Made by a program: the position numbers and the translations under genes
From: Oceanispirochaeta sp.
Lineage (GTDB): Bacteria > Spirochaetota > Spirochaetia > DSM-2461
Assembly (NCBI RefSeq): GCF_027859075.1
Contig: NZ_JAQIBL010000136.1
Coordinates: 1-38,830, forward strand
Reading direction: 5' to 3'
Length of the DNA stretch: 38,830 bases
In this document: in pieces, positions 1,338 through 10,526 of the stretch
Layout of the letters: each line of letters starts with the position of its first letter
How positions within the stretch are numbered: the first letter of the stretch is position 1
The notes under the pieces: generated by a model
Told to the model about the DNA's origin: nothing
Seen by the model: only the letters and a program-made list of their open reading frames with translations
Database searches by the model: none

Positions 1338-2024
1338 ATGAAGCGAAGTGAAATAAACAGCATCATGAAGGATGCCCTGGAGTTTCTGGAAGAGTTCAGT
1401 TGGAGCCTTCCAGAGTGGGCCTCCTGGAGTCTGGAACAGTGGCAGGAACATTACCGTGTCTGTGAACAGATCTTCAAATGCAATCTTGGCTGGGATATTA
1501 CAGATTTTGGTTCAAACGACTTTAAGAGAAAAGGCTTATTCCTTTTTACACTCCGCAATGGAATTTATGGAAAAAGTGCCAAAACCTATGCAGAAAAAAT
1601 CATGATTGTCAGGGAAAACCAGGAAACTCCTCTGCATTTTCACTGGAACAAGATGGAAGACATTATAAACAGAGGGGGTGGTAAGCTACAATTTCAGCTC
1701 TATAAAGCCTCGGAGAATGAAGAACTCTCTGATGAATCCTTTGATGTATATTTAGATGATAGAAAATACCATATAAGTGCAGGTGAAACAATTTCCCTGA
1801 ATCCCGGACAGAGCCTTTGCCTTGAGCCCTTTGTGTATCACCGGTTTTATGGTGCTCCCGGCGAGGGAGATGTCCTGGTGGGTGAAGTGAGTCAGGTGAA
1901 TGATGATTCCCGGGATAACCGTTTTTACGACAATGTTGGTCGCTTTCCTCTCGTTGAGGAAGACGAAAAGCCTCTACACTATCTTGTCTCAGATTATGAG
2001 GCATTTAAAAAAGAATTCTTATGA
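1338..2024 (+). CDS. D-lyxose isomerase (D-lyxose/D-mannose ketol-isomerase), cupin fold
   Basis: This 228-residue protein matches the D-lyxose isomerase family, cupin metalloenzymes that interconvert D-lyxose with D-xylulose and D-mannose with D-fructose in the cytoplasm. The family's N-terminal motif (KRSEIN) is present. The metal site is readable: His100 and His102 in TPLHFHW, Glu107 in the KMEDIINRGGG segment, and His168 in EPFVYHRF. I start at the ATG at 1338, which has AAAGGA about 11 nt upstream and fits the family length; the frame is open 15 codons further up. The stop overlaps the next start (ATGA at 2021-2024), so it is translationally coupled to the PfkB kinase. The family is clear; whether lyxose or mannose is the real substrate cannot be read from the sequence. 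The kinase and the mannitol-1-phosphate-dehydrogenase-like neighbour make a hexose role plausible. Confidence 0.87.
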   Translation: MKRSEINSIMKDALEFLEEFSWSLPEWASWSLEQWQEHYRVCEQIFKCNLGWDITDFGSNDFKRKGLFLFTLRNGIYGKSAKTYAEKIMIVRENQETPLHFHWNKMEDIINRGGGKLQFQLYKASENEELSDESFDVYLDDRKYHISAGETISLNPGQSLCLEPFVYHRFYGAPGEGDVLVGEVSQVNDDSRDNRFYDNVGRFPLVEEDEKPLHYLVSDYEAFKKEFL

Positions 2025-3244
2025 AAAAAATAATTTCTTCCACTGGGTGCTGTCTTTTAGATTATATCTATACAGATTTTTCATTCAACAATGCTGAGTT
2101 TAAAAAATACAGTTCAAGACAATCCGGTGACGGAGGACTGATCCCGGGACATCTTGTTTTTGCAGAAGATCTGGCAGAATTTGCAGGTGAAACTGAAGAT
2201 GAGGTTTTGAACCAACTCTGCCGGGGCAAGTCTCCGGATACTGTCAATCTGGGAGGACCGGGCGTCGTCGCCATGGTCCATGCTTCACAAGTCCTGTTCT
2301 CTGAAGGATGGGATTGCACCTTCTATGGCGTTTACAATCAATCAGAGGAATTTCGGGAGCTGCAGAAGTTTTTAGACTGGTTTCCTCTGAAATACATCCC
2401 TCTGGAAGCCGCCGGAGCTGTCCCTTCCACAACTGTTTTGTCCGATCCGGGTTTCAAGAACGGATCGGGAGAGCGTACCTTTATTAACAGACTTGGTGCG
2501 GCCGATCATTTTAATACAGACCTTCTGGATCAGACTTTTTTTAATGGGGACATCATTTTATGGGGCGGTTCAGCCCTGGTTCCTCCTCTCCATGACAATC
2601 TGACAGAGCTTCTTAAAAAATCAAAAAATTTGGACCGTATCAATATTTTGGGAACGGTTTATGACTTTCGGAATGAATCAAAAAATCCTATTGCTCCCTG
2701 GCCACTGGGAGGTGGGGAGGGCCAGGCTTATCCCTACATTGACCTTATGATGACTGATTATCAGGAGGCCCTCAGGTTATCGGGAACCGGGAACCTGGAC
2801 GACGCAGCCGATTTCTTCAAAAACTCGGGTTTGGGTGCCTTTATAATTACGAGAGGACGGGATGATCTGTATCTGTATTCAAATGAAAACGGCCTTTTTA
2901 AGGGTTGTTCCGGCATTTATCTACCTGTCAGTCCCTATGTTGATGCTGATTTAGTCGTTCATCCCGAAAAGAAAGGGGATACAACGGGATGTGGTGATAA
3001 TTTTATGGGTGGAGTCCTCGTTTCCATCGCCCGGCAGCTTGATGCTCAAGGCATCGGTCCACTTGATCCGGTACTGGCCGCCATAGAAGGGATCTGCAGC
3101 GGTGGTCTGGCTCTTTACAGCAAGGGTGGGTGCATCCGGGAATCTCATCCCGGCGAGAAGGAAGAACATCTCAGGCGCATCCGTCAGGACTATCTTGAAA
3201 ATACTCTTCCCGGCATCAACGGTCCCATTAAAGGAATGGATTAA
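2021..3244 (+). CDS. PfkB-family carbohydrate kinase
   Basis: A 407-residue ribokinase-fold enzyme expected to phosphorylate a sugar with ATP in the cytoplasm. The PfkB signature 2 is clear near the C-terminus: DTTGCGDNFMGG, with the catalytic-base Asp at about residue 326. The glycine pair that closes on the sugar is seen as LGGPGVVA near residue 78. At 407 residues it is longer than typical fructokinases or ribokinases (about 300-330). The extra length lies before the LGGPG motif and in mid-protein segments, so this is a divergent branch. It overlaps the isomerase by 4 nt and the following dehydrogenase by 1 nt (TAATG), so the three are surely co-transcribed. The likely substrate is the ketose made by the upstream isomerase (fructose or xylulose), which is inference from context. 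Confidence 0.85.
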   Translation: MKKIISSTGCCLLDYIYTDFSFNNAEFKKYSSRQSGDGGLIPGHLVFAEDLAEFAGETEDEVLNQLCRGKSPDTVNLGGPGVVAMVHASQVLFSEGWDCTFYGVYNQSEEFRELQKFLDWFPLKYIPLEAAGAVPSTTVLSDPGFKNGSGERTFINRLGAADHFNTDLLDQTFFNGDIILWGGSALVPPLHDNLTELLKKSKNLDRINILGTVYDFRNESKNPIAPWPLGGGEGQAYPYIDLMMTDYQEALRLSGTGNLDDAADFFKNSGLGAFIITRGRDDLYLYSNENGLFKGCSGIYLPVSPYVDADLVVHPEKKGDTTGCGDNFMGGVLVSIARQLDAQGIGPLDPVLAAIEGICSGGLALYSKGGCIRESHPGEKEEHLRRIRQDYLENTLPGINGPIKGMD

Positions 3245-4407
3245 TGAAACAGGCAGTACTCTTCGGCGGAGGAAATATCGGCCGGTCCTTTATCACTCCT
3301 GTATTTCAGGATGCCGGTTATAAAATGACCATCATTGACATGAACAGGGAGTTGATCCAGGACTTGAGGGATAAAAAACAGTATACCATTATCATCTGTG
3401 AGAATGATAAACAAACAGAGACTGTCATTAATGGGTTTCAAAGCCTCTCCCTGGATGAGTCGGTGCAAATACGTGAAGTCCTTCTATCCGCGGATATTGT
3501 GATTTCCTCGGTTGGCCAATGGGGGCTTCCTGCCGTCATGGCACTGATTGCCAAAGTTCTTCCACAGCGGATAGAGAACAGTGTGAATCATCCTCTGGAC
3601 ATAATACTTGCCGAAAATATACCCGGAGGAGGGGAATATTGCCGCTCTTTTCTCAGAGAGCAACTGTCTGCGGAATTTCCCCCTGAAAAAATTCCGGGAA
3701 TTGTAGAAACGAGCATTGGGAAAATGGTTCCTTTCATATCGGAAGATGACCGGGCCATTGATCCCCTTCGGGTCTATGCAGAACCCTACAATACATTAAT
3801 CCTGGATCGTGAGGGTTTTAAGGGTGAATATCCCATCAGTCAAGATATAAAACTTGTCAGTCCTATTCAGGCCTATGTGGACAGAAAACTGTACATCCAC
3901 AATCTGGGTCATGCGGCAGCGGCCTATCTGGGTAGATCTTCTCATTCTGAGATGAAAACCATTTGTGAGGTACTGGCAGATCCGGAGATTTTGAATAAGG
4001 TACGATCGCTTATGCTGCAGTGTGCCGCGGCCCTGATCCAGGAATATTCCGGGGTTTTTACCCGGGAGGAACTGGAGGAGCATGTTGAAGATCTACTGTT
4101 CCGGTTTAGAAATCCCTCTCTGGGCGATAGTGTTCAAAGGGTGGGCCGGGATCTGAAAAGGAAGCTGGCTCCCCAGGACCGAATCTGCGGTGCCATGAGA
4201 TTGATTTTGAAGCATCAGATGCCTGCCGATGCACTCGGGGAGGTATACCGTGCTTCATTGAGCTTCGGTTTGTCAAATGAGGCTGATCAGGAAGACCGTG
4301 AAATTTGCAGAGACGCTGCGGCACAGGGAATCATAGGGATTTATAGATCTTTGTCATCCCTGGGAGATAAATGGGATAAGCAGATTGAAAACCTCTTAGT
4401 TTTATAA
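3244..4407 (+). CDS. Mannitol-1-phosphate 5-dehydrogenase-like polyol dehydrogenase
   Basis: A 387-residue member of the long-chain mannitol dehydrogenase family, close in length to MtlD (about 382). The N-terminal NAD-binding loop is FGGGNIGR (residues 7-14). The catalytic triad K-x4-N-x2-H is present as Lys215, Asn220 and His223 (KLYIHNLGH). Family members reversibly oxidise mannitol-1-phosphate to fructose-6-phosphate, or act on uronates and polyols. Length and N-terminus favour the phosphate-specific MtlD branch, but substrate is not settled and I withhold the gene symbol. It is the third gene of a tightly coupled trio. No mannitol PTS or other transporter is nearby, so any mannitol-1-phosphate would have to come from elsewhere in the genome. 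Confidence 0.8.
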   Translation: MKQAVLFGGGNIGRSFITPVFQDAGYKMTIIDMNRELIQDLRDKKQYTIIICENDKQTETVINGFQSLSLDESVQIREVLLSADIVISSVGQWGLPAVMALIAKVLPQRIENSVNHPLDIILAENIPGGGEYCRSFLREQLSAEFPPEKIPGIVETSIGKMVPFISEDDRAIDPLRVYAEPYNTLILDREGFKGEYPISQDIKLVSPIQAYVDRKLYIHNLGHAAAAYLGRSSHSEMKTICEVLADPEILNKVRSLMLQCAAALIQEYSGVFTREELEEHVEDLLFRFRNPSLGDSVQRVGRDLKRKLAPQDRICGAMRLILKHQMPADALGEVYRASLSFGLSNEADQEDREICRDAAAQGIIGIYRSLSSLGDKWDKQIENLLVL

Positions 4408-4415
4408 TCATTCTT

Positions 4416-4445
4416 TTTACAAAACAGTGGATTTTCCTTTATAGT
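4416..4445 (+). promoter_or_regulatory. Weak candidate promoter before the mutarotase-fold gene
   Basis: TTTACA (4416-4421), an 18-nt spacer and TATAGT (4440-4445) lie in the 55-nt gap. A start near 4452 would leave almost no leader and would cut into the ribosome site GAGGAGG (4451-4457), so simple read-through from the upstream operon is just as likely. Confidence 0.3.
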
Positions 4446-4462
4446 AATCCGAGGAGGATTGT

Positions 4463-5701
4463 ATGAATATTAAAGAAACAACAGATATAGGTGCCAGAGA
4501 GAGCGTTCTCCTTGAAAATGATTCTTTCAGGGTTTTGGTGAACAATGATAAGGGTATGGTGCCCGAGCTCAGTTCCCGGAAAGACAAGGCCTGGATAAAT
4601 GCCCACTGGCAGCCCTGGTTCAGGAATACTTCTTCCTCAAAATGGTCCGCCCATGAGCATGAAGCCTTCTGGAAAGTTCCTTTGCTTTATGATATTGCCG
4701 GAAATTTTCCCTGCTGCCCCAATTTCGGCCCCGGTCATACCTGGAAGGGATCAGAAATGCCTCCCCATGGCTTTACCAGTTTTATGAACTGGGAGTGCCT
4801 GGACATGATGAAAAAAGAGAACTCCGTCTCTGTTCACTGGGAGCTGACACCGCCGGATCAGCCCTTAAGGTATCAAAAAATCGATATGATCCGCAAAGAT
4901 GAAAATGTCCACTACGCCAGTCTGACCGTGACAAATCGTTCTGATGGTAAGGAAGAGATGAATATCGGCTGGCACAATACGGTGGGAGCTCCTTTTCTGG
5001 AATCAGGATGTCTTATCTGTAATAATTCCGAAGAATTTGCTGTTCCTCCCCTGGGTACTGAATTTGATACAACCGGGCAGCTGGAGCCGGGCTCCAGGAG
5101 CAGATCTCTCTCTGAAATGCCCTTGAGAACCGGAGGAACTGCTGATTTTTCCAGAGTCCCGGGAGTCACGGGTTTTACTGATTTTGTCGCTGCAAAGGTA
5201 CCCGATGATTGTCGGATCGGCTGGACCGCCATCATTAATCCTCGTCAGAAACTGGTCTACCTTTCCTGGTTTACCGGTCCCGGGTCGGTGACAAAGGCTG
5301 AAATCCCCTTGTATTTCTACAATTACTGGATGAACTACGGGGGCCGACCCTTTCAACCCTGGGCAGCACAGGATGGCGGGAGTGACAGATCCTTCTGTCT
5401 CGGTTCAGAGAATTCCGTCAGTTTTTATGCTAATGGCCTTGAAGAGTCTGTAGATCATCCATCCTTAATGGGTCATCCTACCCATCTTGTACTGAATCCG
5501 GGAGAATCCAGAGTTCTGAATTATGGTACAGCCTTTTTTTCCTATGAAGAGGATATTCTTGATGAAGGAATATATGACCTTGAGCTCTCTGATAACAGTC
5601 TGATACTTCATGGGTCACAAGAAGGTTCCATCGTGAAAGTAAAGGCTCAAGGGACTTTTGATGAGTTGAAAAAACTCAACGCCACCTCTCTACAGCATTG
5701 A
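4463..5701 (+). CDS. Aldose-1-epimerase (galactose-mutarotase-fold)-like protein of unknown substrate
   Basis: A 412-residue soluble protein without signal peptide or membrane helix. Beta-rich stretches, the segment FGPGHTWKGSEMPPHGF (about residues 92-108) with a PPHG motif, and a second histidine context (IGWHNTVGAPF, about residue 174) resemble the carbohydrate-binding beta-supersandwich of aldose epimerases and related DUF4432-type proteins. It would bind or epimerise a sugar, possibly the one handled by the isomerase and kinase upstream. The start ATG has an excellent ribosome site, GAGGAGG, 5 nt upstream. It follows the dehydrogenase by 55 nt and is closed off by a hairpin plus T-run before the ROK gene. 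The fold assignment is from motif impression only; the catalytic role is not established. Confidence 0.5.
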   Translation: MNIKETTDIGARESVLLENDSFRVLVNNDKGMVPELSSRKDKAWINAHWQPWFRNTSSSKWSAHEHEAFWKVPLLYDIAGNFPCCPNFGPGHTWKGSEMPPHGFTSFMNWECLDMMKKENSVSVHWELTPPDQPLRYQKIDMIRKDENVHYASLTVTNRSDGKEEMNIGWHNTVGAPFLESGCLICNNSEEFAVPPLGTEFDTTGQLEPGSRSRSLSEMPLRTGGTADFSRVPGVTGFTDFVAAKVPDDCRIGWTAIINPRQKLVYLSWFTGPGSVTKAEIPLYFYNYWMNYGGRPFQPWAAQDGGSDRSFCLGSENSVSFYANGLEESVDHPSLMGHPTHLVLNPGESRVLNYGTAFFSYEEDILDEGIYDLELSDNSLILHGSQEGSIVKVKAQGTFDELKKLNATSLQH

Positions 5702-5736
5702 GATAGAATCTTCCAATATTTGAAAACAGATACATT

Positions 5737-5771
5737 AACCGGGATTCAATTTGTGTATTACCGGTTTTTTT
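5737..5771 (+). terminator. Candidate terminator of the first sugar operon
   Basis: AACCGG (5737-5742) pairs with CCGGTT (5761-5766) across an 18-nt loop, and a T-run (5765-5771) follows directly. The stem is short and the loop long, so termination may be partial. It lies 35 nt after the stop of the mutarotase-like gene and upstream of the ROK promoter. Confidence 0.5.
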
Positions 5772-5805
5772 GTATTTGAAAGGAAAGCCAAATAATAAGA
5801 CTTCC

Positions 5806-5834
5806 TTGACAAAAGGAGAGATCAAAAATAGAAT
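5806..5834 (+). promoter_or_regulatory. Strong promoter of the ROK operon
   Basis: A perfect -35 box TTGACA (5806-5811), a 17-nt spacer and TAGAAT (5829-5834, 5 of 6 to consensus). It is one of the two best sigma-70 promoters I see in the window. Transcription would start near 5841, inside the adjacent inverted repeat. Confidence 0.75.
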
Positions 5835-5835
5835 G

Positions 5836-5860
5836 TGTTTGTTGATGCAACCAACAAACA
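5836..5860. promoter_or_regulatory. Inverted repeat at +1, likely auto-operator of the ROK repressor
   Basis: Perfect 9-bp arms TGTTTGTTG (5836-5844) and CAACAAACA (5852-5860) flank a 7-nt spacer. It begins 2 nt after the -10 box and ends 17 nt before the ROK start codon. In layout and core sequence it resembles the GTTTGTTT/AACAAAC operators of Bacillus XylR, itself a ROK repressor. Binding here would block the promoter, so self-repression of the operon is the natural reading. Confidence 0.65.
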
Positions 5861-5877
5861 GGTTGATGAGGATGTAT

Positions 5878-7002
5878 ATGTCTGAAAATAAAGCTCAGGA
5901 AGGGAACCTCAACAGGAGCAGAACAATCGACCTGATCAGAAACAGGCCCGGAATCAGCCGTATAGAGGCCTCAGGACTCCTGGGACTCAACAGGTCTACC
6001 CTGACACATATTGTTAATGATCTCCTGGCCGATGGTTTTGTCAGGGAAGAAAAGACCGGGAAAGCAGGTGAACGGGGAGGCCGTATTCCCATAGGACTCA
6101 GAATCGAGGAAAAGTTGATTCTAGGAGTCGAGTGGCAGGACTCCTATATTCGCTTCAGTCTGAACAGTTTATCCGGAGAGACCCTGAAACAGGATATAAT
6201 AAAACTGACAGAAAATTCTGTTCCTCATTTGATATCGGTTCTTAAAAAACTAATCCAGGACCTGGAAACAAAGTTTTCAGCACCTATCTTCGGCATGGGG
6301 ATGGGTCTTCCCGGCAGGATAAACCCGGATCAAGGAGTTGTCTTATTATCCCTGCCACTGGTCCTCTCTCAAAAGGAGCTCGCCCGGGATCTCAGGGAGA
6401 GCCTGGGCATCCCCGTCCTGATAGAAAACGACGCCAATTGTTTTGCCTGGGGAGAAATCATGGGGCGACGGGAGTTTGAAGGTAATCTGGTTTGTCTTCT
6501 CCTACAGTTCCATTCCAATATAAACAGGCAGACCTGGGACCAGGAAATCGGGATTGGCATTGTCCATCATGGAAGTGTTTACCGCGGCTCCAGCTATGCG
6601 GCAGGAGAGCTCAGGGTCTCTCCGGTCAGTGATGATCTTCGGGATAAATTCCTCGATGAGCTGAATCGGGATGATTCTTCCGCCACCAGGGCATCAGAGG
6701 AATATATTACTTCGCTTTTTAAAACGATCAACCCCGTACTATCTGCCCTGGATCCTCACAAGGTGATTCTGGGAGGAGACTTTTTTCTGCATGGAATCAA
6801 ACTGGAAGGGATACTCAAAAAGACTCTTCCCTTCAGCTGGAGTTATTCAGAGAATGGAATCTGGGAAGTTGCTCAGGGTGGGGCATCTTTTTTTATCAAA
6901 ACGATCTTTACTCTTCCCGGATTCAAAGAATCCTCTCTTCTGAAGGGGCAGTGGGAAGTTGTCTTGAATCAGAAAAAAACATTGGGAGTTTTAAATGCTT
7001 AA
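5878..7002 (+). CDS. ROK-family transcriptional repressor (XylR/NagC type)
   Basis: A 374-residue protein with an N-terminal winged helix-turn-helix (about residues 14-65, with the recognition region SRIEASGLLGLNRSTLTHIV) and a C-terminal ROK sugar-kinase-like domain. ROK marks include IENDANCFAWGE, IGIGIVHHGSVYRGSSYAAGEL and the late VILGGDF. The Cys-rich zinc motif of ROK kinases and of NagC is not seen. I chose the ATG at 5878 because GAGG lies 6 nt upstream and translation then begins just before the HTH; the frame is open to 5770, but that would place the start upstream of the promoter. The 3' end overlaps the phosphofructokinase by 8 nt. It probably represses its own operon through the repeat at 5836-5860 until a sugar or sugar phosphate binds. 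Confidence 0.88.
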   Translation: MSENKAQEGNLNRSRTIDLIRNRPGISRIEASGLLGLNRSTLTHIVNDLLADGFVREEKTGKAGERGGRIPIGLRIEEKLILGVEWQDSYIRFSLNSLSGETLKQDIIKLTENSVPHLISVLKKLIQDLETKFSAPIFGMGMGLPGRINPDQGVVLLSLPLVLSQKELARDLRESLGIPVLIENDANCFAWGEIMGRREFEGNLVCLLLQFHSNINRQTWDQEIGIGIVHHGSVYRGSSYAAGELRVSPVSDDLRDKFLDELNRDDSSATRASEEYITSLFKTINPVLSALDPHKVILGGDFFLHGIKLEGILKKTLPFSWSYSENGIWEVAQGGASFFIKTIFTLPGFKESSLLKGQWEVVLNQKKTLGVLNA

Positions 7003-8197
7003 AGGTAAAGCGGTGATCGGACAATCCGGCGGACCCACATCTGTCATTAATTCAAGCCTCGCAGGAGTCATTTCAAAGGCTCTGGAAAATCAGGACATTA
7101 CAAGGGTCCTTGGTATGAATTACGGGATAGAGGGGTTCATGAAGGAACAATTTTTTGATCTGACAGCCCAGAGTCCCGCCATCCTGGAAGGATTGCGGGT
7201 CACCCCATCCTCGGCCCTCGGTTCTTCCCGTCATAAACTGGTGGAAGAAGATTTCCCCATTATTCTGGATGTGCTAAAAAAATATGATATCCGGTTTTTT
7301 TTCCTGATCGGCGGTAATGACACCATGGATACGGTTCACCGGGTCGAATCTTATTGCCGAAAACAGAATTATGATCTCAGAGGAATCGGCATCCCCAAGA
7401 CGGTGGACAATGATCTGTTTGGAACGGATTTTACTCCGGGATTTCCATCGGCTGCACGGAGTAACATCCTGAATGTTCTGCAGGCCGGCGTTCTGTCCCG
7501 GGATATGAAAAAAGTAGATCAATTTGTCATTTATCAGACCATCGGAAGAGATGCAGGATGGCTTGCCGCTTCAACGGCTCTGGCCAGAAACAAAGAGGGG
7601 GATGCCCCTCATCTCATTTATTGTCCCGAAAAGCCTTTGAAACCTGATCAGCTCATCAGTGATGCAAAAGACTGCGTCAAGAAATATGGATGGGTCTCTA
7701 TCGTTGTCAGTGAGGGGCTTTTATATGAAGACGGAACTCCTGTGAGTGCAGCCCGGAACAAGGATAAATTCAATAATACCGAGTTCGGGGCCATGGGTGG
7801 AGCCAGTGTGGCCCTGAATGTCCATAAAATTCTAACAGATGCACTGGACGGGGCCCGTGGAGAGTTTCAGATCACCGAATCACTCATCATGAGCGCCTTT
7901 GACCGAAGCGAACCCCTGGATCTGGACCTGGCATATGCCTGTGGCCAGAGGGCTGTGACGCTGGCCTGTGAGGGAACAACCGGCGTGATGGTCAATATCA
8001 AACGCAGCAACAGCGATGAGTTTTCCCTGGGTCAGGTTCCCCTTACAGATGTAGCCGTCAAAGCAAGAGTTCTACCTCAGAATTTTATTAATGAGAGAGG
8101 GAATGATGTTACATCAGATTTTATCAGATATCTGTCTCCCCTGATTTCCACTCTCCCCCGCTTTGTAGAATTAGAACAGAAATTTCATAAGGAATAA
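6995..8197 (+). CDS. 6-phosphofructokinase, probably pyrophosphate-dependent
   Basis: A 400-residue PfkA-superfamily enzyme that phosphorylates fructose-6-phosphate at C1. The N-terminus has the phosphoryl-donor loop (GQSGGPTSVIN). GGND at residues 106-109 puts an Asp where ATP enzymes carry Gly, and PKTVDND at 134-140 puts a Lys where ATP enzymes carry Gly (PGTIDND). Both changes mark the PPi-using type; Asp138 is the catalytic base. Substrate binding continues in the TDFTPGFPSA region. PPi enzymes are reversible and some also accept sedoheptulose-7-phosphate. The start overlaps the end of the ROK gene by 8 nt and the stop is 3 nt before the PIG-L gene, so it belongs to the ROK operon rather than standing alone as a glycolytic gene. 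The subfamily is firm; donor specificity is inferred. Confidence 0.87.
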   Translation: MLKGKAVIGQSGGPTSVINSSLAGVISKALENQDITRVLGMNYGIEGFMKEQFFDLTAQSPAILEGLRVTPSSALGSSRHKLVEEDFPIILDVLKKYDIRFFFLIGGNDTMDTVHRVESYCRKQNYDLRGIGIPKTVDNDLFGTDFTPGFPSAARSNILNVLQAGVLSRDMKKVDQFVIYQTIGRDAGWLAASTALARNKEGDAPHLIYCPEKPLKPDQLISDAKDCVKKYGWVSIVVSEGLLYEDGTPVSAARNKDKFNNTEFGAMGGASVALNVHKILTDALDGARGEFQITESLIMSAFDRSEPLDLDLAYACGQRAVTLACEGTTGVMVNIKRSNSDEFSLGQVPLTDVAVKARVLPQNFINERGNDVTSDFIRYLSPLISTLPRFVELEQKFHKE

Positions 8198-8200
8198 GGT

Positions 8201-8971
8201 ATGACTGATTTCAATAAAAATGTACTGGTGGTCCAGGCGCATCCTGATGATGCAGAAGCCTGGTGTGCCGGAACCCTGGCCCTCTTGAAAAACGCAGGTT
8301 TTAAAATTTCCATCGCCACCATGACGGCCGGCGGCATGGGTGGGATGAGCGGGAATGAGGATGAAACAATCTGTGTTCGTAAAAAAGAAGCCCGAAAGGC
8401 TGCGGCTCTCCTTGATGCCGACTATTACTGTCTGGATCAGAGGGATGGATTTGTCTTTGATCATGAAGAGGTCAGAATCAGGATGGTGGATATAATCCGC
8501 AAGACAAAAGCGGGCATAGTTATCACACATCTCCTTAATGATTATCATGCAGATCATAGAGCCACAGGAGCCATCTGCGATGCTGCCGCCATGATCTCTT
8601 CCCTGCCCAATGTGCCCTCCAGGGAGGAGGCCCTCCCTGTTACCCCTCTATTGTATCATAGCGCTCCCATGAGCTTAAGCGACCCCCTGGGCTTTCCCAT
8701 GGCATCTCCCCATTTCTATGTAGATATAGGTTCTACCATTGATGTGAAATTGAAAATGCTGGGCTGCCATGAATCGCAGATTCAGCTGATGAAGCATATG
8801 CATAAGATTGATGATTTCTTTGGAGAAATGAAGAAATTCAGCCATGAACTGGGAATAGGGGTGGGTGTGGACTACGCAGAATGCTTCTGGCAGCATCTGG
8901 GTGGGGGGTTTCAGAAAAACCCGCTCATTCAGGATGTCCTGAAAAAACATATTATCCTAAAGGAAAAATAA
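8201..8971 (+). CDS. PIG-L/LmbE-family deacetylase
   Basis: A 256-residue zinc-dependent de-N-acetylase-like protein. The hallmark AHPDDAE is at residues 13-19 (His14, Asp16, Asp17) and the second motif HADH gives His116 and His119; His14, Asp17 and His119 are the expected metal ligands. Members remove acetyl groups from N-acetylglucosaminyl compounds. There is no signal peptide, so it acts in the cytoplasm. It sits 3 nt after the phosphofructokinase and is immediately followed by the SIS gene, which suggests de-N-acetylation of an amino sugar before isomerisation or deamination. BshB-like thiol metabolism is another known role in this family, but nothing nearby supports it. Confidence 0.87.
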   Translation: MTDFNKNVLVVQAHPDDAEAWCAGTLALLKNAGFKISIATMTAGGMGGMSGNEDETICVRKKEARKAAALLDADYYCLDQRDGFVFDHEEVRIRMVDIIRKTKAGIVITHLLNDYHADHRATGAICDAAAMISSLPNVPSREEALPVTPLLYHSAPMSLSDPLGFPMASPHFYVDIGSTIDVKLKMLGCHESQIQLMKHMHKIDDFFGEMKKFSHELGIGVGVDYAECFWQHLGGGFQKNPLIQDVLKKHIILKEK

Positions 8972-9985
8972 ATGAATCAAGATGAAAAATATCAGAAATT
9001 TGCCTTATGCAGAGAAATGCTTGAAACTCCCCGAGTCATCCGGAGTCTCAATATCCCCCATCTACAGCACTTCGTTGATGCCGTTTCTCAGTCTCAGGAT
9101 GTTCTCCTTACCGGAGAAGGCTCCAGTAGAATATTTCCTGGAAAGAGAGCCATTACCCAGTCCCTGATGAAGGGAGAAACGACCAGATTTTTCACAGAGG
9201 GATCAACCCAGGCAATGGACTATGATCTGAAGGACCGTGCTGTTTTTGGATCATCCAATTCTGGGAAAACGAAGGAACTGATCAGACTCTTTCATAAGCT
9301 GGGAAAAGACTCTCATCAAAGACTTTTTGGTATTACCGCCTCTGAAAATTCTCCATTGGAATCCCTCTGTCAGACCACGTATGTATTGAGATGCGGAGCC
9401 GAAAAGGCTGTGGCTGCGACAAAGAGTGTGGCCGAACAGGCTCTTTTTTATGATGCTCTGAGAGCAGGCTTAAGGAATGAAACTCTAAAAGGTCTTGATC
9501 AGGCGGCAGAGTCTGTAGAAAAAGCCCTCAAAATGGAAATAGATCCGTCTCTTATTAATTTGATCGCCTCAGCGGATATGATATATTTTTCAGGACGCAA
9601 TAACGGAGTAGCCGAAGAACTGACTCTGAAAACAAATGAGATAACCCGGAAAAAATCGGATTTCCTTGAAGGGACCTACGCAGCCCATGGCATCGAGGAA
9701 GTCATGAATTCAAAGGATATTCTTGTTGTTATCGACCCCTTCAGAGAGGAAGAGGAAAAGTTTCTGGAATGTCTGACAAAGGGGGTAGGGGTTCAGATTA
9801 TTTCAATTGCCTCAAGGAAAACATCATTCACCCATAGCATTGTGATCCCCGAAGCCGGAGATTTTCAAAACTATGTTGAACTCGCGGCGGGATGGAATCT
9901 TCTGGTGGAAACAGGTTTGTCCCTTGGAATTGATCTGGATACGCCCGTCAGGGCCAGAAAAGTTGGAAACGAATACATAGAATAA
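8972..9985 (+). CDS. SIS-domain sugar isomerase/deaminase
   Basis: A 337-residue protein with two SIS folds, the arrangement of the GlmS isomerase half and of AgaS/FrlB-type enzymes. Phosphosugar-binding motifs include LLTGEGSSR (about residues 45-53), GSSNSGKTKEL (about 90-100), and the GlmS-like AVAATKSVAEQALF (about 146-159). No glutaminase domain is present, so it would act on an amino-sugar phosphate or a glycated compound rather than make glucosamine-6-phosphate from glutamine. Its ATG directly follows the PIG-L stop codon. Together with that gene a route from N-acetylated amino sugar to fructose-6-phosphate can be drawn, ending at the phosphofructokinase of the same operon; this is inference. 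Confidence 0.8.
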   Translation: MNQDEKYQKFALCREMLETPRVIRSLNIPHLQHFVDAVSQSQDVLLTGEGSSRIFPGKRAITQSLMKGETTRFFTEGSTQAMDYDLKDRAVFGSSNSGKTKELIRLFHKLGKDSHQRLFGITASENSPLESLCQTTYVLRCGAEKAVAATKSVAEQALFYDALRAGLRNETLKGLDQAAESVEKALKMEIDPSLINLIASADMIYFSGRNNGVAEELTLKTNEITRKKSDFLEGTYAAHGIEEVMNSKDILVVIDPFREEEEKFLECLTKGVGVQIISIASRKTSFTHSIVIPEAGDFQNYVELAAGWNLLVETGLSLGIDLDTPVRARKVGNEYIE

Positions 9986-10017: not shown

Positions 10018-10470
10018 CTAGTCCTCTGTGGAGTGCATCAACAATTCATATTCGCTTGTTGAGAGGCTGGATGCGTCTTCCGTTGAGTTTTCCAGCTTCT
10101 CACTGATTTCCTTGCGAATATTCTGAACATCTGCCAGATGGGATGCCATTTTCCTTTTCAATTCAGGAAAACGCTCGGCATCTTTTTCAGAAAAGAAGGA
10201 TTTTTTTTCTTCTACTGTCTCTATCAGTTTTGAAAGTCTGGTTTTTAGTTTCTGAATGGAGAAGAGGAAATCGTTGCGTCTGATCAAATATGGGTTTTCC
10301 TTGAGAAGATCATAGTGGCGGTTCAGGACTGCATCTATTGCAAAAATCTGACTTATCATCCTGGAAGCAAAAAATTCTTTGTCAATGGACAGTTTTAATC
10401 CGTTCTGTATATTGATAATCTCCGTATGCAGATAAAAGAGGTTATCTTCATAATGAACCATCTCGCTCAT
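10018..10470 (-). CDS. Hypothetical helical/coiled-coil protein
   Basis: This protein of about 150 residues is not recognised. It is almost entirely helical and charged, with likely coiled-coil stretches (for example KLKTRLSKLIETVEEKKSFF and the region around VQNIRKEISEKLE). It has no Cys pairs, no signal peptide and no membrane helix. I prefer the ATG at 10470 because GGGAG sits 6 nt before it; the frame is open to an ATG at 10521, which would give 167 residues but has no close ribosome site. It is convergent with the sugar operon (33 nt gap) and divergent from rpsF. The single-gene position gives no functional clue. Confidence 0.65.
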   Translation of the reverse strand: MSEMVHYEDNLFYLHTEIINIQNGLKLSIDKEFFASRMISQIFAIDAVLNRHYDLLKENPYLIRRNDFLFSIQKLKTRLSKLIETVEEKKSFFSEKDAERFPELKRKMASHLADVQNIRKEISEKLENSTEDASSLSTSEYELLMHSTED

Positions 10471-10526
10471 CTTTCGCTCCCAGTCCTTATTTCCTGTTAT
10501 ATGTTTCGGCAACATGGGCATTTAGC

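Follow-up and report, generated by a model that had tools for sequence, protein, structure and literature searches.

The four genes from a ROK-family regulator to a SIS-domain enzyme (positions 5806 to 9985, promoter included) in a 38,830-nucleotide stretch of an Oceanispirochaeta genome (the stretch is here called the window, the genome G000) appear to form a self-contained, self-regulated operon for breaking down an N-acetylated amino sugar, with GlcNAc or glucosamine as the likeliest substrate; we give this reading a probability of about 0.5. The ROK protein would repress from a palindrome just 3′ of the −10 box until the sugar, or the phosphate of that sugar, released it. The PIG-L protein, judging by its family and context, would take off the acetyl group, and the phosphofructokinase (PFK) paralogue would use PPi to phosphorylate the still unphosphorylated amino sugar (plausibly glucosamine). 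The pocket of this paralogue has Glu/Glu/Ser/Met in place of the basic 6-phosphate ligands. The SIS enzyme would then convert glucosamine-6-phosphate (GlcN6P) to fructose-6-phosphate (F6P) and ammonia, replacing NagB. A literature search found no direct match to a described operon or to a PFK-family hexosamine kinase.

All eight open reading frames listed in an earlier note on this DNA were confirmed; they follow one another head to tail, all on the + strand (1293/1338 to 9985; Table 1). The two-operon arrangement and the lack of a transporter (0/8 genes) are borne out, and the family assignments agree with Pfam and NCBIfam scores and, for the mutarotase fold, with an AlphaFold2 model. The LyxI start at 1338 is probable because homology begins at residue 16. 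As for the note's overall reading, the amino-sugar route through PIG-L and SIS is supported, whereas the single two-operon module and F6P as the PFK substrate are not.

Table 1. Predicted features of the two operons, numbered from the first letter of the window
Feature	Positions	Strand	Evidence
LyxI, D-lyxose/D-mannose isomerase family cupin (accessory operon 1)	1338..2024	+	PF07385, 310 bits
PfkB/ribokinase-family sugar kinase, divergent (accessory operon 1)	2021..3244	+	PF00294, 41 bits
MtlD-like polyol-phosphate dehydrogenase (accessory operon 1)	3244..4407	+	PF01232 + PF08125 (Mannitol_dh, 95+73 bits)
Mut4, aldose-1-epimerase/mutarotase-fold protein	4463..5701	+	No Pfam match; fold from model
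Sigma-70-type promoter of ROK operon, TTGACA-17-TAGAAT	5806..5834	+	11/12 consensus matches
Probable ROK operator, 25-bp palindrome TGTTTGTTGATGCAACCAACAAACA	5836..5860	.	Unique in window, 0 expected
ROK-family winged-HTH regulator	5878..7002	+	PF00480 + HTH_24
PFK paralogue, PPi-type donor site, 6-phosphate pocket lost	6995..8197	+	E290, E295, S296, M299
PIG-L zinc deacetylase, predicted amino-sugar deacetylase	8201..8971	+	PF02585, 88 bits
SIS enzyme, predicted GlcN6P deaminase replacing NagB	8972..9985	+	SIS, 45 bits

Gene neighborhoods show that ROK-PFK-PIG-L-SIS is a conserved unit and LyxI-PfkB-MtlD a separate three-gene operon. The former is conserved in Spirochaetes, Bacteroidales, Planctomycetes, Fibrobacteres, and others; in G003, G005, G007, and G012, as in every other phylum seen, no LyxI-PfkB-MtlD adjoins it. 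In G002 and G004, the latter lies about 850 kb and about 11 kb, respectively, from the ROK operon; in G007, the two are on different contigs. PFK was found within 3 kb of the SIS gene, on the same strand every time, in 50/70 loci; a PIG-L gene was present in 47 of these 50, versus 2 of the 20 loci without PFK. This coupled gene order is not due to chance. Aldose 1-epimerase genes also adjoin the module, which implies a free aldose. NamZ/peptidoglycan recycling, which adjoins the module in one genome (G009, locus L125), was set aside because it is on the opposite strand and in that genome only. A mannose substrate, suggested by GH125 (exo-alpha-mannosidase) in Bacteroidales, was likewise rejected, as GH125 was seen here in that lineage only.

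From its translation, in which the kinase-type DxGGT motif is absent, the ROK protein is a regulator and not a kinase. Its start is probably the ATG at 5878 rather than the TTG of a longer open reading frame, because the promoter and operator lie inside the latter; homologous N termini were also used. The promoter has aligned counterparts in G001, G002, G004, G005, and G007. The palindrome recurs at the same position and with the same sequence type in G001, G002, and G004 and is degenerate in G005 and G007, and G000, G001, G002, and G004 each have one strong site, at the ROK promoter. With a winged HTH and a conserved palindrome at its own promoter, the protein is a predicted repressor. One extra site with two mismatches occurs in G000 just 5′ of another ROK regulator and is functionally little informative.

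The SIS enzyme is very probably a GlcN6P deaminase in place of NagB, on account of its phyletic pattern with nagB, its modeled fold, and its invariant residues. Of the 115 spirochaete genomes that carry nagA, nagB alone is present in 87, SIS alone in 21, both in 3, and neither in 4 (Fisher P = 4e-16); across 248 genomes of the class, SIS occurs in 62, nagB over the cut-off in 112, and both in 4 (5e-14). Kinship was handled only by collapsing to genus, which left 11 with SIS only, 35 with nagB only, 3 with both, and 2 with neither (5e-7). Module PFK was found without SIS in five genomes, four of which have nagB (G045, G083, G172, and G177), while in the fifth the PFK is at a contig edge; 11 genomes have SIS without module PFK, several with DUF4954 instead. 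The best PDB match of the SIS model is the Pyrococcus furiosus GlcN6P deaminase 2cb0; GlmS isomerase domains come next. Residues S51, S95, S97, T100, K220, E223, H239, and K330, among them the C-terminal Lys and the catalytic Lys/Glu/His, do not vary in 42 sequences, and we take them to be equivalent to the catalytic and phosphate-binding residues of the GlmS/GlmD type. The enzyme scores below the cut-offs for NagB-II (NF046059; 33 < 430 bits) and GlmD (NF041128; 30 < 580). An AgaS/GalNAc-tagatose route is not favored, there being no AgaS model among the NCBIfam matches. The predicted deaminase would close the pathway gap left where nagA occurs but nagB does not, as in many spirochaetes and probably other anaerobes as well.

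The preceding gene encodes a PIG-L superfamily protein with AHPDD at residues 13 to 17 and HxDH at 116 to 119; its score is below the cut-off for the bacillithiol deacetylase BshB1 (TIGR04001; 106 < 182.5 bits). Sequence similarity was too weak to assign its substrate. In relatives G026 and G059, PIG-L is fused to NagB, which links PIG-L to the GlcN6P deaminase reaction. With PIG-L and SIS together, the amino-sugar route to F6P claimed in the earlier note gains support, the SIS assignment now being much stronger.

The PFK paralogue scores 144 bits against Pfam PFK and 382 bits against PRK14072 (“diphosphate-F6P phosphotransferase”), and module PFKs form their own clade in the tree (support, 1.0). 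PPi-type donor residues are kept (D104 is D in 53/56 and K124 is K in 56/56; D109 and K135 in the window protein), as are catalytic residues D127, D129, R72, R171, and E222 and the sugar-ring residues. However, R243 is replaced by E, H249 by S, and R252 by M in 56/56 and R162 by Q in 41/56, and these are exactly the four 6-phosphate ligands named previously (PMC7319554). A second Glu has been gained at 248 and is invariant across phyla; the E/E/S/M pattern of the window protein (E290/E295/S296/M299) holds in 56/56, and E at R243 and M at R252 also occur in seven PFK rows from another set of loci. In a PPi-PFK examined previously, R162 and H249 were changed and the other nine F6P residues were shared (PMC10339645). 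The 6-phosphate ligands Arg243 and Arg252, not reported as changed in true PPi-PFKs (PMC10339645), are absent from the module PFKs.

These replacements suggest that the module PFK is probably not an F6P kinase; F6P as its substrate, as the earlier note had it, is probably wrong, the 6-phosphate pocket being lost in every module PFK examined. It may be an amino-sugar kinase; in Atribacteria, the gene order is ABC transporter-PFK-SIS, and no further kinase gene was seen alongside. Slightly more tentative is a broader proposal, in which the whole clade annotated as PPi-PFK would consist of kinases that use PPi on an amino sugar not yet phosphorylated. Acidic and neutral residues would have taken the place of the arginines in the phosphate pocket, and these kinases would have been inherited together with a PIG-L deacetylase and a new SIS-type GlcN6P deaminase in FCB, PVC, and spirochaete bacteria. 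The automatic label of glycolytic PPi-phosphofructokinase is probably wrong for this multiphylum clade, which may be an unrecognized sugar kinase, and metabolic models crediting PPi-dependent glycolysis would therefore be distorted. A kinase of this kind would, to our knowledge, be the first case of a PFK-family enzyme taking on a free hexosamine as substrate and would make amino-sugar catabolism ATP saving and PPi driven.

Several observations count against the amino-sugar operon as proposed. Two ROK glucokinase-like kinases adjoin PFK in Bacteroidales clusters, and G045 carries a glucokinase; in these cases, PFK is not necessarily the sugar kinase. The acidic pocket might bind neutral hydroxyls and not an amine, and R304, invariant in module PFKs, could give a different phosphate site. 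NagA is also present in G000 and others, making PIG-L partly redundant, although the nagA match of G000 carries an in-frame TAG. An unlikely, but the least unlikely, alternative is that PFK is still an F6P phosphotransferase in a linear channel from GlcNAc6P/GlcN6P through F6P to FBP, with other residues binding the 6-phosphate. Gene order, a PRK14072 score above the cut-off (382 > 273), the retained sugar-ring, catalytic, and PPi residues, and the probable production of F6P by SIS all agree with it, but it has to accommodate the replacement of four ligands across phyla (R162 mostly), one by an acidic residue, plus the Glu at 248, as well as true PRK14072 enzymes coexisting with module PFK in G019, G023, and G025 and three other PFK-family matches in the window genome.

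An acidic pocket could also suit an Amadori/fructosamine route, in which PFK would phosphorylate O6 of 1-amino-1-deoxyfructose, flipped in the furanose pocket so that the Glu residues take the amine, and SIS would be an FrlB-like deglycase. SIS deglycases share the SIS fold, and the pseudosymmetry of fructofuranose would make the flip sterically plausible, but we consider this route improbable: the strict complementarity with nagB among nagA-positive genomes is left without a reason, fold and HMM matches favor GlmS, NagB-II, and GlmD, and PIG-L has no obvious role. Still less credible is a biosynthetic module, with SIS operating backward and supplying GlcN6P for a glycoconjugate (a bacillithiol-like thiol, for example) that PIG-L would process. 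BshB1 is nearest to PIG-L, and DUF4954 (beta-helix repeats) and a GATase1-like protein neighbor SIS in some lineages; against this, PIG-L is far under the BshB1 cut-off, and the clusters look catabolic, with ABC or SSF transporters, GH2, GH4, GH125, mutarotases, and ROK regulation. We regard as equally improbable the earlier note's model of the whole locus, in which the two operons would form a single module that salvages mixed mannose, mannitol, and amino-sugar material by routes meeting at F6P. The operons are adjacent in G000 and G001, and the mutarotase-fold gene adjoins ROK in G002 too. However, neighborhood comparison, the note's own check, shows the halves scattered in most relatives, the window contains a single ROK operator, with none upstream of operon 1, and PFK is unlikely to use F6P.

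The step order proposed for the amino-sugar operon is closer to that of archaeal chitin breakdown, in which a PIG-L deacetylase, a GlcN kinase, and the SIS deaminase GlmD act in turn, than to NagK-NagA-NagB. The archaeal and proposed routes both have a PIG-L deacetylase and an SIS-type GlcN6P deaminase (Dac TK1764 and GlmD TK1755 in Thermococcus [PMC6579819]). Deacetylation can precede phosphorylation in both, and the best structural match of the SIS model is the Pyrococcus GlmD-type enzyme. In contrast to the archaeal GlcN kinase, which is ADP dependent and of ribokinase fold, a PFK-family protein is in the kinase slot here; SIS is only about 22% identical, and the module is bacterial, ROK regulated, and without an exo-glucosaminidase in the operon. 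Predicted conversion of GlcN6P to F6P and ammonia and ROK regulation are shared with NagK/NagA/NagB and with NagB-II (SO3506-type SIS deaminase), and NagB1/NagB2 nonorthologous displacement is an established concept (PMC5583593). The SIS enzyme is not NagB-II by score, PIG-L replaces or accompanies NagA, and a PFK paralogue is present. PRK14072 PPi-PFKs (3k2q and 3hno) share full-length homology, PPi-type donor residues, and the catalytic Asp pair with the module clade, which differs in lacking R243, H249, and R252 (E, S, and M) and in its invariant E295 and R304. Bacteroidetes-type NagB-PIG-L fusions also couple PIG-L to a GlcN6P deaminase, but that domain is of NagB fold, not SIS, and is fused, with no PFK.

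LyxI-PfkB-MtlD is a separate operon for a predicted ketose/polyol pathway and adjoins the ROK operon in G000 and G001. “Mannitol-1-phosphate dehydrogenase” and “lyxose/mannose isomerase” should be read as names at the level of the family only, because both proteins score below NCBIfam equivalog cut-offs: MtlD has M1PDH (mannitol-1-phosphate 5-dehydrogenase) as its best match (212 bits; cut-off, 356), and LyxI reaches 264 of 350 for D-lyxose/D-mannose isomerase (LyManIsomGneg), with PF07385 matched and D-lyxose isomerase 3kmh as the nearest solved structure (E = 5e-63). The PfkB kinase weakly matches YdjH (3h49/3in1); its relatives occur in 54/248 spirochaete genomes, mostly adjoining LyxI and/or MtlD in the loci read. 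The Mut4 model (pLDDT, 91) has aldose 1-epimerases and galactose mutarotases as its best Foldseek matches (TMt of about 0.7), and His102/His171 are mostly kept. Mut4 adjoins ROK in G000, G001, and G002 only.

The main value of this region lies in a widespread PFK-PIG-L-SIS module with a predicted NagB replacement and a remodeled PFK. Relatives of the SIS protein, at ~50 to 78% identity, occur in Spirochaetes, Bacteroidales, Planctomycetes, Fibrobacteres, Cloacimonadota, Atribacteria, Ignavibacteriae, and others. Of the 70 SIS loci flanked by 2.5 kb or more on each side, 50 had a PFK gene within 3 kb of the SIS gene and in the same orientation; a PIG-L gene was present in 47 of these 50. The setting around this core varies between lineages (see table). 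In Planctomycetes-type modules (L070, L072, L081, L093, L101, and L107), PFK and SIS were accompanied by a GATase1-like protein (PF07090) and, in most cases, by a divergent PIG-L gene. A DUF4954/DUF6819 protein (~735 aa; beta-helix with eIF2B-epsilon-like repeats) is encoded next to SIS in many loci, most of which lack PFK (L104, L106, L108, L121, L124, L126, and others), and is probably tied to amino-sugar phosphates.

Features of the window and arrangements of related loci
Feature	Coordinates	Strand	Setting or gene order
LyxI-PfkB-MtlD operon	1338-4407	+	
Mutarotase-fold protein Mut4	4463-5701	+	
Promoter of ROK operon	5806-5834		between Mut4 gene and ROK
25-bp palindrome	5836-5860		between Mut4 gene and ROK
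Probable ROK start codon	5878	+	ATG
ROK-PFK-PIG-L-SIS module	5878-9985	+	
167-aa ORF, no Pfam match	10018-10521	-	between module and ssb
Bacteroidales locus			GH125-ROK kinase-CBM9-like-PFK-PIG-L-SIS-ROK kinase
Locus in several spirochaetes			PFK-SIS-PIG-L-aldose epimerase
Atribacteria locus			RbsB-type ABC transporter with PFK-SIS
Other Atribacteria locus			GH4 alpha-glucosidase-type enzyme with ROK and PFK-SIS
G045 and G083 locus, without SIS			GH2-SSF symporter-glucokinase-type gene-PIG-L-PFK (order read in both; GH2 and glucokinase domains established for G045)

ORF reading and family profile searches recovered all eight ORFs in the window with the families named in the earlier note, and no transporter is among them, as it had said. 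Mut4 had no Pfam match, and the PDB matches of its AlphaFold2 model (pLDDT 91) were aldose 1-epimerases and galactose mutarotases. The proposed unity of the two operons as a single salvage locus was not borne out: among the six same-genus genomes examined, LyxI-PfkB-MtlD adjoins ROK-PFK-PIG-L-SIS only in the window's genome (G000) and the related genome G001, and in G002 the two are separated by ~850 kb. ROK-PFK-PIG-L-SIS was present in all six of these genomes and is probably its own transcription unit, since a promoter and a palindrome separate it from the Mut4 gene. A small ORF, ssb, rplI, and dnaB adjoin the module in both the window and G045, which suggests an old location. Short ORFs of ~150 aa occupy the place of the window's 167-aa ORF in relatives (L111, L114, and L187).

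The missing NagB (glucosamine-6-phosphate deaminase) is very probably the module's SIS. Among 61 relatives, SIS was present in every genome with nagA and without nagB. Across a larger set of 248 genomes (101 genera), with nagB counted over cut-off, 62 had SIS and 112 had nagB, and only 4 had both. The nagA-positive genomes (n = 115) had nagB only in 87 cases, SIS only in 21, both in 3, and neither in 4 (Fisher P = 4e-16); by genus, the corresponding counts were 35, 11, 3, and 2 (P = 5e-7). Module PFK occurred without SIS in five genomes, four of which had nagB, and in the fifth the PFK was cut by a contig end. The SIS AlphaFold2 model (pLDDT 92.7) best matched Pyrococcus furiosus glucosamine-6-phosphate deaminase (2cb0), followed by GlmS isomerase domains. 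The phosphate-binding Ser/Thr, Lys220, Glu223, His239, and C-terminal Lys330 were invariant in 42 sequences, and we take these to be the equivalents of GlmS catalytic residues. In an equivalog profile search, SIS fell outside the curated NagB-II and GlmD equivalogs and thus represents a distinct SIS lineage. NagB-PIG-L fusion proteins of 639 to 664 aa in two spirochaetes (G026 and G059; L233 and L234), with the PIG-L domain C-terminal, independently couple PIG-L to the glucosamine-6-phosphate deaminase reaction. The earlier note was right in its interpretation of an amino-sugar entry to fructose-6-phosphate (F6P).

Its assignment of F6P as the phosphofructokinase substrate is probably wrong, because the 6-phosphate residues are replaced, the enzymes form a separate clade, and other PFKs coexist in the same genomes. 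Module PFK exceeds the cut-off of PRK14072, the PPi-phosphofructokinase family model, and retains the residues for donor binding and catalysis, R72, D104, K124, D127, D129, R171, and E222 (E. coli PfkA numbering, checked against these motifs). The 6-phosphate of F6P is held by His249, Arg252, Arg162, and Arg243 (PMC7319554); in a studied PPi-PFK, Arg162 and His249 are changed and 9 of 11 F6P residues are common (PMC10339645). All 56 module PFKs had Glu243, Glu248, Ser249, and Met252, and 41 had Gln162; a further seven PFK rows, including genomes without SIS, had an identical 6-phosphate-pocket pattern. Phylogenetically, module PFKs formed one clade (support 1.0; branch 0.72) alongside canonical PRK14072 enzymes. 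Both kinds coexist in genomes such as G019, G023, and G025, and G000 has three other PFK-family matches. Judged by sequence, module PFK is probably no ordinary phosphofructokinase. Atribacteria module PFKs (L085 and L094) have GGNG where others have GGND, an ATP-type donor residue, which suggests a PPi-to-ATP donor switch within the clade.

The simplest pathway with all three enzymes, and without another kinase, would run from PIG-L through the PFK paralogue to SIS. PIG-L would convert an N-acetyl amino sugar to the amino sugar, the PFK paralogue with PPi would yield the amino sugar-6-phosphate, and SIS would convert this to F6P and NH3. We infer the acetyl substrate of PIG-L, which sugar PFK binds, the direction in which SIS runs, and the ROK ligand; the observed basis of the pathway is linkage, conservation, residue changes, nagB complementarity, and a conserved operator. 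The archaeal chitin route includes a GlcN kinase. Its step order is alike, and it also uses a PIG-L deacetylase and an SIS deaminase (PMC6579819). Weak points of the proposed pathway are the ROK or glucokinase-type kinases adjoining PFK in Bacteroidales and G045 and the co-occurrence of NagA in many genomes. The only G000 nagA match over cut-off (C132:17016-18158; L181) contains an in-frame TAG that could reflect mutation or misassembly. An HTH-ROK gene and a sugar ABC transporter precede this match, and no kinase gene adjoins it.

The ROK palindrome has one copy in the window. G001, G002, and G004 each had a single site at up to 2 mismatches, located at the ROK promoter, and in G003 the site was at the start of another contig. 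G000 has one additional site (C310:33477; L275 near 1501), a 25-bp TGTTTGTT-type palindrome with 2 mismatches. A different ROK-HTH regulator gene begins shortly downstream of it, and the site is possibly a paralogous operator.

PfkB relatives were found in 54 of the 248 class genomes, and in the loci read their neighbors were mostly LyxI and/or MtlD. An AraC-type gene diverges from LyxI in G001, and ABC transporter genes lie near LyxI-PfkB-MtlD in G002 and G004. LyxI and MtlD scored under curated equivalog cut-offs and the PfkB match was remote, so mannose and mannitol are candidate substrates at most; this operon can defensibly be described as encoding an aldose-ketose isomerase together with a kinase for a ketose or polyol and a dehydrogenase of the polyol-phosphate type. 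In G002, two more Mut4 paralogues (L239 and L240) share a neighborhood with LyxI-PfkB-MtlD and a pair of Rbs-type ABC transporters, which suggests that Mut4 generally belongs with sugar uptake loci.
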